Shown here piece by piece: positions 466 through 20,728 of a stretch of DNA of 27,943 nucleotides. Within the stretch, counting starts at the first letter, position 1; each line of letters opens with the position of its first letter. The position numbers and the translations under genes were made by a program. Origin of the DNA: a virus; IMG/VR virus record IMGVR_UViG_3300021371_000083, positions 1-27,943 of that record. One strand, given 5' to 3'. The notes under the pieces are model-generated. The model had not been told where the DNA came from, did no database searches, and worked only from the letters and a program-made list of their open reading frames with translations.

Positions 466-499
466 TTGACTCTCAGCAAGGGTCTGTCATAATGATACT
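466..499 (+). promoter_or_regulatory. Promoter of the cloverleaf RNA
   Basis: TTGACT at 466-471, then CATAAT at 488-493 with a 16-bp spacer. A start about seven bases after the -10 box falls at ~500, the first base of the closing stem of the RNA downstream. Confidence 0.7.
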
Positions 500-611
500 T
501 ACCAACACGACCTAATCAATCTGCAAATTGATGGTGGTGAAGAGAGGCAATGATTGCAGTCACCGCTAAACTCTTGGAGGTTCGATTCCTTCCGTGTTGG
601 TATGATTTTTA
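500..611 (+). ncRNA. tRNA-like cloverleaf small RNA without a normal anticodon arm
   Basis: A perfect 10-bp closing stem is formed by 500-509 (TACCAACACG) and 593-602 (CGTGTTGGTA). Inside are three hairpins: 515-532 (ATCAAT/ATTGAT, six-base loop), 534-566 (GTGGTGA/TCACCGC, seven pairs, with an inner GCAA/TTGC helix) and 576-592, which is a canonical tRNA T-arm (GGAGG, loop TTCGATT, CCTTC). The topology is that of a tRNA. However, no five-pair, seven-base anticodon arm can be found, the D-loop GG is absent, the closing stem is too long and there is no encoded CCA. A promoter starts transcription at the first stem base and a TTTTT run at 606-610 follows. It may be a tRNA mimic, a degenerate tRNA or an unrelated structured RNA. 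Confidence 0.55.
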
Positions 612-612
612 C

Positions 613-647
613 TTGACTCCAACTTTCAACTCTGTCATACTATAACC
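613..647 (+). promoter_or_regulatory. Leaderless promoter of the 648-1541 operon
   Basis: TTGACT at 613-618, 17-bp spacer, CATACT at 636-641, six bases to ATG 648. Same geometry as the leftward promoters, here on the plus strand. Confidence 0.65.
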
Positions 648-761
648 ATGATTAAGATCAGAAAAAAGATTCTCTTCACCAAGTCTCGACCACACAAGCT
701 CAAGACAAAAGTGATTCATCGCAAACTCAAACACAAAACCAATCTCACTCATGCGTCTTAA
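648..761 (+). CDS. Very basic 37-aa peptide
   Basis: ATG 648 to TAA 761 encodes a Lys/Arg/His-rich peptide starting MIKIRKKILFTKSRPHK. No family is recognised. The strong basic character suggests nucleic-acid or acidic-protein binding, which is inference only. The promoter geometry supports this start. Its last 11 bases overlap the start of the next gene at 751, so the two are probably translationally coupled. Confidence 0.55.
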   Translation: MIKIRKKILFTKSRPHKLKTKVIHRKLKHKTNLTHAS

Positions 762-3166: not shown

Positions 3167-3221
3167 GCCAAACGCAAAAAAAGATGCAATTATTTTCACT
3201 TTGTTGTAAGTCGCTGTATGC

Positions 3222-3271
3222 CAACGAGTTGCGCAAAACGCGCCTGGGCTGTTTGCCCTAAGTTGTTGATG
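3222..3271 (-). repeat. Palindromic 3' element, copy 4
   Basis: CAACGAGTTGCGCAAA, then a GGGC/GCCC inner stem, and TTTGCCCTAAGTTGTTG. It ends one base before the stop of the 53-aa gene at 3273. The flanking TTGTTGTAAGTCGCTGTAT at 3201-3219 is shared with copy 6. Confidence 0.8.
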
Positions 3272-3469: not shown

Positions 3470-4084
3470 TTAAACTGAGAGACTTTTTAAATTTTTTGTT
3501 GAGATGCAGAGTGCAACTTGACGAGCTTCGCCAAGCATTTTTCCTTGCGAGTTGCTCCACCTTGACTTGCGAGAGAGATTGCTAACAAAGAATTCGCTTC
3601 GAGTGGTCGAGTTTATTTGCTTTACTTTTTCGCGAGTCGATTCAATTGAATTACCTCTGTCTTTAACAAAGCTAGAAACTTCTTTCCAAGTATTGTAGTT
3701 TTTCAGTAAAGATGTGTCAGCTTTAACTTTTATGAATTTTATATCAACAAGGTTATCAGGTGTTCCATCATAAAAGCCGATGACAATGACAAGTCCATTT
3801 TTTAAACATTTCATTTTTCTTTCGAGATCGCCAAGGATTATCACAGAGGATTTGATATTGTAGTATTTTACTTCCCAATCCGCTACCCATTCAGAAGGTA
3901 CATTTCCTTGCTCTACTATTTCTTTAGGAAAGTCTACTTTTGATTTATATTGATTATATTGTGGAAAGTTGTAGTGATCAGCAAGAAACATTTCCAAAAA
4001 CTTACCATGTCCACCTTTATTGTGAGCATTTAAATTTCTTGAGTATTTAGCGATTTCGTTCATTCTATTTTGTGCAATTTTCAT
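3470..4084 (-). CDS. Putative PD-(D/E)XK nuclease, 204 aa
   Basis: This is the largest gene of the leftward array. The N-terminal half contains, in the right order and spacing for a PD-(D/E)XK nuclease, a Glu in a helix (GGHGKFLEMFLADHY, E31), an Asp after a strand (KSKVDFP, D51) and an E-x-K (ADWEVKYY, E71 and K73), followed by hydrophobic strands (SSVIILGDL, GLVIVIGFYDG). This resembles restriction-endonuclease-like folds; a role in host DNA degradation or phage competition is inference. Unlike its neighbours it has a short leader of about 28 bases and a GGA Shine-Dalgarno seven bases before the ATG. Assignment rests on motifs only. Confidence 0.5.
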   Translation of the reverse strand: MKIAQNRMNEIAKYSRNLNAHNKGGHGKFLEMFLADHYNFPQYNQYKSKVDFPKEIVEQGNVPSEWVADWEVKYYNIKSSVIILGDLERKMKCLKNGLVIVIGFYDGTPDNLVDIKFIKVKADTSLLKNYNTWKEVSSFVKDRGNSIESTREKVKQINSTTRSEFFVSNLSRKSRWSNSQGKMLGEARQVALCISTKNLKSLSV

Positions 4085-4355: not shown

Positions 4356-4377
4356 TTGTTGTAAACCGTTGTTGTTT

Positions 4378-4426
4378 AACGAGTTACGCAAAACTCGCTT
4401 GGGCCGTTTGCCCTAAGTCGTTGACG
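4378..4426 (-). repeat. Palindromic 3' element, copy 5
   Basis: AACGAGTTACGCAAA with inner hairpins CGAGTT/AACTCG and GGGC/GCCC, then TTTGCCCTAAGTCGTTGACG. It ends about six bases before the stop of the gene at 4432. Confidence 0.8.
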
Positions 4427-5434: not shown

Positions 5435-5554
5435 GCCCATAGCAAAAAAACTTTGTGTCATAAACTATTGATTATCATGTACTTATGTAAACACGCAAAA
5501 AAAAGTTGTTTTATTTTAAGAAAAGTTTTAGGTTTGTTGTAAGTCGCCGTATAC

Positions 5555-5604
5555 CAACGAGTTACGCAAAACTCGCGTAGGCGGTTTGCCCTAAGTTGTT
5601 GATG
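5555..5604 (-). repeat. Palindromic 3' element, copy 6
   Basis: CAACGAGTTACGCAAAACTCG (inner hairpin CGAGTT/AACTCG), then TAGGCGGTTTGCCCTAAG and TTGTTGATG. It lies 17 bases after the stop at 5622 and shares its outer flank (TTGTTGTAAGTCGCCGTAT) with copy 4. Confidence 0.8.
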
Positions 5605-6992: not shown

Positions 6993-7727
6993 ATGCCTCG
7001 ACGCAAGAAAAAACCAGAAATCGTGAATGAAGCGGAAATTGAAAAAATTCGTAAATCATTAACCAAAACAAACATCAAGCTTAAAAAAATTGCACTCACT
7101 GAAAAACAAAAGCAATTGTTACAAATCATCTTTGATAATGATAGCAAAATAATATTCATAAGTGGCCCTGCGGGCACAAGCAAGACATACGTGGCCATAT
7201 ACGGTGCTCTACAGCTTTACAATATGAATAATGAGCGCGGCATCACATATGTACGCACCATCGCAGAGAGCGGCGAGAAGAGCCTCGGCGCGCTGCCTGG
7301 AGAAATGGCCGAAAAAATCAATCCTTACATGATGCCAATGAATGAAAAGCTCGACGAGCTGTTGATTCCTGGCCAAGCCAGCACAATAAAAGAAAAAGAA
7401 ATAGTAAAAGGCATGCCCATCAACTATCTTCGCGGTGCAAGTTGGCGAGATGAAATAGTAATCGCCGATGAAAGTCAAAACTTTACATTCAAAGAATTAA
7501 CCACATTAATGACTCGTTTGGGCGAGGGTAGCAAGTTGATCATCTGCGGCGATCCAATGCAAAGCGACATCAATGGCAAAAGTGGATTCGCGGACATGTA
7601 TTCAATCTTCAATGACCAAGAAAGTCAAGCTCGCGGCATACACACATTTCATTTTGGAGCAGAAGACATACTAAGAAGCAAAATATTAAAATTTGTAATT
7701 GAAAAAATAAGCAAGAAAAAGGTGTAA
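6993..7727 (+). CDS. phoH: PhoH-like ATPase, 244 aa
   Basis: A P-loop ATPase of the PhoH family, common in phages. The basic N-terminus MPRRKKKPEI precedes a helix and then the Walker A motif GPAGTSKT (residues 58-65). Walker B is IVIADESQN (D159, E160) with the PhoH-type ES-Q sequence, followed by sensor-like strand KLIICGDPMQSD. Length is normal for phage PhoH. Cellular PhoH proteins are ATPases linked to RNA metabolism; the phage role is not settled. It is the first rightward gene and lies nine bases before the giant virion gene. Its stop codon is part of the next promoter-like motif. Confidence 0.92.
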   Translation: MPRRKKKPEIVNEAEIEKIRKSLTKTNIKLKKIALTEKQKQLLQIIFDNDSKIIFISGPAGTSKTYVAIYGALQLYNMNNERGITYVRTIAESGEKSLGALPGEMAEKINPYMMPMNEKLDELLIPGQASTIKEKEIVKGMPINYLRGASWRDEIVIADESQNFTFKELTTLMTRLGEGSKLIICGDPMQSDINGKSGFADMYSIFNDQESQARGIHTFHFGAEDILRSKILKFVIEKISKKKV

Positions 7728-19814: not shown

Positions 19815-20728
19815 TAACCTGTAAAATATGCTCCGAACAATTTGAAAGTGAGAAAAAATTGCACATGCACTTGCGTTCACACAAAATTACTCTTGCGGAA
19901 TATTATACTAGGTATTATCCTAGAAATAATTTACTTACCAAAGAACCTTTGCCATTTAAAAATAAAGAACAATATTTTGACCGCGATTTTGCCAACAGAA
20001 AACAATTATTAGATTGGTGCGCAAAAACACCGGATGCACAAGTAAAAGAATATATTCTTGAATTGCTTGATCGAAGAATCAAGCGTAAAGAGTTAAAGTT
20101 TGGTCCGTCGCATGTAGAACTAAAGACGAGTGACATGCCAACTGTTGATTTATATCAAAAACATTTTGGCTCATATAGCAAAGCTTGTGATTTGGTTGGA
20201 GTTAAGCCATTGTTTAGTACGCGATTGCCAGATGAATGGCAAAATCCTGTGCCAGATGATGTTAAAATATTTATTGACACTCGTGAACAGCAACCTCTTG
20301 AGTTTGACAATTCAGAATCATTAAAATTAGACTTTGGGGACTACGCCGTGGGTAGCAATCATTACGATTATACATATGTCGATCGAAAAAGTGAAACAGA
20401 TTTCAAATCCACACTAAGCAAAAACAGTCTCAACCGATTTCGCGCAGAACTACAACGCACGAAAGATTTTGACAGTTATCTTTTTGTGGTAACAGAAACA
20501 GATATGAGTACCATGGAAAAGCGTAATAAATGGTCGCCACACACATCCAATATGAAGTATATTTATCACAACATGAGGGTATTGGCGCACGACTTTTCTG
20601 GTCATTGCCAGTTTATTTTTACAGGTAGCAGAGAGCAGTCCCAACAACTAATTCCAAAAATTTTAACGTTAGGTAAGAAATTATGGAATGTTGATTTACA
20701 ATATTACATCAGCAATCAATTAATTTAA
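19811..20728 (+). CDS. C2H2 zinc finger - ERCC4-type nuclease, 305 aa
   Basis: The N-terminus is a C2H2 finger: C4, C7, H20, H24 in MITCKICSEQFESEKKLHMH. A segment near 115-131 (YQKHFGSYSKACDLVGVKP) resembles the repeat associated with homing endonucleases. Residues 152-300 form an ERCC4 (XPF/MUS81) nuclease: FIDTREQQPLEF (D156, E159), GDYAVG (D177), VDRKSETDF (D191, R192, K193). The usual E-R-K core is D-R-K here, so activity is plausible but unproved. The stop TAA and the terL ATG share one base, suggesting a packaging role or a linked DNA-processing step. Confidence 0.75.
   Translation: MITCKICSEQFESEKKLHMHLRSHKITLAEYYTRYYPRNNLLTKEPLPFKNKEQYFDRDFANRKQLLDWCAKTPDAQVKEYILELLDRRIKRKELKFGPSHVELKTSDMPTVDLYQKHFGSYSKACDLVGVKPLFSTRLPDEWQNPVPDDVKIFIDTREQQPLEFDNSESLKLDFGDYAVGSNHYDYTYVDRKSETDFKSTLSKNSLNRFRAELQRTKDFDSYLFVVTETDMSTMEKRNKWSPHTSNMKYIYHNMRVLAHDFSGHCQFIFTGSREQSQQLIPKILTLGKKLWNVDLQYYISNQLI

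Follow-up and report, generated by a model that had tools for sequence, protein, structure and literature searches.

A compact, phage-borne RNA of about 103 nt is shaped like a tRNA and, judging from its sequence, cannot decode codons. It lies at positions 500-602 of the window, a 27,943-nt stretch of DNA that is an entire IMG/VR record, and comparative analysis confirmed that it is a real, conserved structured RNA. It belongs to a family of 17 members (16 distinct) from uncultured IMG/VR phages, all of which share one common 10-4-5-5 cloverleaf. Its anatomy is secure, and no description of the family turned up in the collections that we searched or in the literature covered, which lay largely outside subscription journals.

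The RNA locus

The window is a fragment of a phage; it carries genes that resemble PhoH (at 6993) and terminase (at 20728). In a collection of isolated phages we found only distant protein relatives of this phage, so its lineage has no close cultured member there. No ORF of at least 40 aa covers the RNA, and the fold of the window RNA has a z-score of -4.4 relative to shuffled sequence. The features of the locus, numbered along the window, are listed here.

466-493, plus strand: sigma-70-like promoter of the tRNA-like RNA (TTGACT at 466-471, 16 nt, CATAAT at 488-493), read from the sequence and kept in close relatives
500-602, plus strand: tRNA-like RNA, whole conserved structure of about 103 nt, from a 17-member alignment and covariance model
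500-509, plus strand: acceptor-like stem, 5' strand, pairing with 593-602; compensatory changes at 6 of 10 pairs
510-513, plus strand: D-stem-like helix, 5' strand, pairing with 535-538; 2 of 4 pairs covary (ACCU/AGGU to AUCA/UGAU)
515-532, plus strand: hairpin in the D-loop position, 6-bp stem 515-520/527-532; compensatory changes at 5 of 6 pairs
521-526, plus strand: hexaloop 1, CUGCAA, complement of 554-559; paired in 99% of cells, with a single compensatory change (L146)
533-534, plus strand: GG identical in every member, in a place that appears analogous to tRNA G18-G19
540-544, plus strand: anticodon-stem-like helix, 5' strand, pairing with 571-575; 100% of cells paired, compensatory changes at 3 of 5 pairs
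546-567, plus strand: hairpin in the anticodon-loop position (546-548/565-567 and 551-553/560-562); compensatory changes at 5 of 7 pairs
554-559, plus strand: hexaloop 2, UUGCAG, complement of 521-526, from loop comparison across members
576-592, plus strand: T-arm, stem 576-580/588-592 and loop UUCGAUU at 581-587; GGUUCGANUCC invariant in all members
606-610, plus strand: T-run, probable transcript end, read from the sequence; a terminator scan called none
613-641, plus strand: second promoter (TTGACT, 17 nt, CATACT), read from the sequence, for a downstream small basic-peptide gene; the other edge of the cassette

The -10 element of the first promoter ends at 493, which predicts a transcription start near 500/501 and agrees with the first-pass annotation of this DNA, in which the promoter was said to place the start at the first stem base. 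That annotation also took the T-run as the end of the RNA. A run of 3-5 T is indeed located 3-5 nt past the closing stem in all members examined, although a simple scan found no terminator at the 3' end. We infer from this arrangement that the RNA is a stand-alone phage transcription unit. The further claim that there is no leader to remove agrees with the window and its close relatives but probably not with several more distant members, in which promoter-like sequence is further upstream and a leader of about 15-25 nt is likely.

Comparative evidence for the cloverleaf

The first related loci were fetched via PhoH and a nearby small protein. The RNA is 75-93% identical in L012, L014, L015, L034, L036, L039/L040 and L042, and pattern scans, one constrained solely at the two hexaloops and the T-loop and another leaving both hexaloops free, added L081/L104, L087, L090, L095, L108, L145, L146 and L115. 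A covariance model built from 14 members, from which the most divergent member, L115, had been left out, recovered L115 with 57.6 bits (E 2.6e-11). Among the 16 distinct sequences, compensatory changes occur at 24 of 43 pairs, so the check for covariation in relatives that had been proposed at the outset came out in favor of the fold. In the same sequences 93.7% of cells are paired, a figure that falls to 39-45% when partners are slid by 1-3 columns. The 16-sequence alignment was fitted to the model, and a MAFFT-only alignment of 14 sequences agrees with it.

These numbers bear directly on the idea that the locus is a decayed tRNA gene or a functionless chance fold. Such an origin would suit the patchy presence of the RNA and the fact that neither ARAGORN nor Rfam sees a tRNA in it, but decay would not keep compensatory pairs on this scale, nor 94% of cells paired, over divergent phages. 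Decay is thus contradicted as a general explanation, and we consider this reading very improbable, even if single copies such as that of the window could be drifting.

The boundaries of the family were probed in several other collections. Isolated phages searched with the RNAs of the window, L146 and L115, and plasmids searched with that of L104, yielded short T-arm or chance matches only. Pattern matches in bacterial genomes proved on inspection of their sequences to be ordinary tRNAs or chance. Of the remaining viral pattern matches, the model was applied to 21 loci and recognized none of them; other non-members were judged by eye. Several of the weak model matches at 12-22 bits were inspected and are ordinary tRNAs.

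The stems of the cloverleaf measure 10 (mostly bulged on the 3' side), 4, 5 and 5 bp and join at a four-way junction where no more than one base is left unpaired; in length, the 4-5-5 helices correspond to the D, anticodon and T stems of tRNA. The D-loop position is filled by a single purine, a hairpin of 6 bp (one more in L115) topped by the loop CUGCAA, and then the invariant GG. The perfect 10-bp closing stem described initially is present in the window, but it is peculiar to that copy: a bulge of 1-3 nt interrupts the 3' strand in nearly all relatives, and L115 has a mismatch near the junction. Two further differences set the window copy apart from its close relatives, namely an extra A at 549 in the anticodon-position hairpin and a bulge base missing from the closing stem at 597/598, and each may reflect drift or sequencing error. 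The lowest-energy RNAfold structure of the window copy (-37.3 kcal/mol, versus -33.8 kcal/mol for the conserved cloverleaf) was rejected, and the covarying cloverleaf was preferred.

Relationship to tRNA, tmRNA and other non-coding RNAs

ARAGORN reported no tRNA and no tmRNA in the RNA region, and Rfam returned no match at its gathering scores nor, even at E<=10, any tRNA there. We therefore rejected an ordinary tRNA, and the expectation that no well-scoring isotype would emerge was correct. What the RNA does share with canonical tRNA is a T-arm with a TTCGANT loop, which is invariant in the family; together with the covarying cloverleaf, this bears out the tRNA topology that had been recognized from the loop TTCGATT. 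Canonical tRNA has a 7-nt anticodon loop, whereas all members of the phage family keep the 5-bp stem and replace the loop with a hairpin, and the RNA was accordingly well described as having no usable anticodon arm. In place of a 7-bp acceptor stem and a 3' NCCA there are 10 bp, mostly bulged, and no encoded CCA, again as first noted. Ordinary tRNA genes are present in some of these phages, and those of L070, unlike the tRNA-like RNA, do encode a 3' CCA. Linker nucleotides 8-9 and the variable loop of tRNA are both missing. A claim of the first-pass annotation that we find doubtful is the lack of a D-loop GG, because the dinucleotide G533-G534 occupies the corresponding position in every member without change. 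By analogy with the tRNA elbow, this GG could dock on the T-loop. Charging of the RNA is unlikely.

The tRNA-like domain of tmRNA, as described in PMC3929946, amounts to the upper half of a tRNA without the anticodon half. The phage RNA resembles it in this upper half but lacks CCA and is only about 103 nt long, and both the ARAGORN tmRNA search and Rfam were negative for tmRNA.

To our knowledge, stable phage RNAs that contain tRNA parts but do not decode have been recognized ever since T4 and are still unexplained. T4 RNA C and RNA D (species 1 and 2 stable RNAs) are likewise small stable phage non-tRNAs, and RNA C has a tRNA-type T-arm (CCGGG UUCGAAU CCCGG) near its 3' end, as does the present family. 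However, the T4 RNAs differ from it in length and arms and are sited inside a tRNA cluster, and a search of T4 stretch L156 with model R1 for homologs found only tRNA-Leu at 12.6 bits.

Bacterial Y RNAs with a tRNA-like module (YrlA) are also non-decoding, tRNA-mimicking RNAs. By analogy with them, the phage RNA might serve as a sink or recruiter for a T-arm enzyme (TruB or TrmA) or for RNase P rather than as a defense decoy. The T-arm sequence GGUUCGANUCC is invariant, as in tRNA, in keeping with this role. On the other hand, the Ro60/TROVE gene was found in 0 of 17 records, mostly fragments. Rfam gave no match to a bacterial Y RNA, and a look at the closing stem by eye showed no conserved sequence motif. 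A TROVE protein with a tRNA-like partner has been noted for some jumbo phages (PMC7824862). We regard a role as enzyme sink or recruiter as unlikely.

A cassette with variable neighbors

The RNA is single-copy. Not counting the window, 17 of 56 related records match it strongly (16/32 plus 1/24), in a set that was chosen partly for holding the RNA. Model search gave no strong match in related records of 126-203 kb. L064 provides an empty site, in which the upstream promoter is joined straight to the downstream gene, the RNA and the second promoter are missing and the flanks are alike. As judged from these sequences, the RNA is a clean cassette whose two edges are similar -10 regions. Across members, no fewer than five different genes follow it, and in the clade of the window the gene that follows has a promoter of its own; for both of these reasons a cis-regulatory leader of the next gene was rejected. 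Instead, its own promoter, single copy, variable neighbors and clean absence from close relatives argue for a trans-acting accessory RNA.

Several other elements were observed in these loci. Directly 3' of the RNA, window positions 648-761 contain a gene with its own promoter for a small, very basic peptide (MIKIRKKILFTKSRPHKLKTK...), which is also found in relatives without the RNA. An intergenic hairpin repeat of about 54 nt (CAACGAGTTACGCAAAA...AAGTTGTTG) is present in six window copies (366-419, 1680-1733, 1999-2052, 3215-3268, 4370-4423 and 5548-5601), the others being 63-72% like the first, and L015 and L034 have similar sequences upstream of the RNA; these could represent either terminators or a small mobile repeat. 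L104 has a manA RNA motif (RF01745, 81.4 bits) at 3527-3732, about 2.8 kb upstream of its tRNA-like RNA. In L115, at about 1000-1350, the motif CCCTTGAAAG is found on both sides of the RNA, and the region may hold further unusual RNAs.

Complementary hexaloops

A property that the earlier annotation did not include is the mutual complementarity of the two hairpin loops. The hexaloops are exact complements (CUGCAA/UUGCAG) in all members but L145, which has a single terminal mismatch. In L146 the first has changed to CUGCGA and the second to UCGCAG, restoring complementarity. Support for loop pairing therefore comes down to one compensatory change (L146) versus one mismatch (L145), and the loop-loop helix taken alone is more conserved than covarying, with 46 of 500 shuffles reaching the observed score. 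Because UGCA is palindromic, both hexaloops also fit YUGCAR, and a shared protein-binding motif of this form is a partial alternative to pairing; the L146 pair breaks the motif while complementarity is kept. The evidence is good, not conclusive, and suggests that the hexaloops probably kiss, either within or between molecules, which sequence cannot tell apart. We rejected a tRNA-Cys reading in which CUGCAA is the anticodon loop, since the loop sits in the D-arm position, has six bases and, in L146, varies in concert with loop 2.

If the hexaloops of neighboring copies pair with each other, the RNA could assemble into dimers or rings and play a structural role like that of phi29 pRNA. The loops are fully complementary and conserved. 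Six-base kissing pairs tend to be nearly coaxial, as in TAR-TAR*-type complexes, a geometry that would suit two molecules better than two arms of one junction. The paired 5' and 3' ends and the two complementary interlocking loops (99% of cells) likewise recall pRNA. Nevertheless, pRNA has a three-way junction (PMC5340915) whereas the phage RNA has a four-way junction with a T-arm, the RNA matches no Rfam family, pRNA included, and its absence from the large related records makes an essential motor part unlikely. Self-assembly also leaves the invariant tRNA-type T-loop unexplained, and we judge it improbable.

Alternatively, the exposed YUGCAR loops may pair with phage or host messages, with the tRNA-like body as a stable scaffold for a regulatory small RNA. 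Hexaloops can be seed sites, and the RNA's own promoter and variable neighbors would fit such a role. Its loops, however, are nearly invariant while the flanking stems vary freely, and the sole double change preserves their mutual complementarity, so we give this proposal little weight.

A possible tRNA mimic or decoy

Our best explanation, which we hold tentatively, is that the RNA acts in trans during infection as a stand-alone, tRNA-shaped mimic or decoy of about 103 nt. We consider this the most economical guess because the parts that have been kept are those that tRNA-handling factors read, while those that have been lost serve decoding and, probably, charging. The retained tRNA-like upper half, with an acceptor-like helix that runs straight into the T-arm and a D-stem with its GG, would be bound by a host protein or complex that recognizes the tRNA acceptor, T-arm or elbow and would keep it occupied. 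Candidate partners are a tRNA-targeting defense nuclease, RNase P or a T-arm enzyme, and the RNA would present no anticodon loop for a nuclease to cut. The earlier suggestion of a tRNA mimic that may act on ribosomes or tRNA-processing enzymes is compatible with this picture.

A mimic or decoy is consistent with the covarying fold and the recovery of L115, the invariant GGUUCGANUCC and GG, and the complementary loops with their compensatory change in L146. Also in keeping with it are the separate promoters of the RNA and the next gene, the at least five downstream genes, the single copy, the empty site in L064 and the difference from the CCA-encoding tRNAs of L070. Two published accounts give context: phage tRNAs have been proposed to counter tRNA-depleting defenses (PMC10264068), and the defense nuclease Cas12a3 contacts the acceptor stem, T-arm and tail (PMC12851939). 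Even so, the 10-bp, usually bulged stem and the lack of linker 8-9 and a variable loop might cause tRNA-binding enzymes to reject the RNA, and, lacking CCA, it would not decoy tail-reading nucleases by that route.

A bolder possibility, which we put forward as doubtful, is that the family represents a new class of viral tRNA mimics whose D- and anticodon-position hairpins lock together, or lock copies together, for use against tRNA-targeting defenses or as an assembled scaffold. Because the family is compact and strongly supported, has a well-defined anatomy and comes with a naturally empty site as a control, the function of a phage tRNA mimic becomes open to direct testing.
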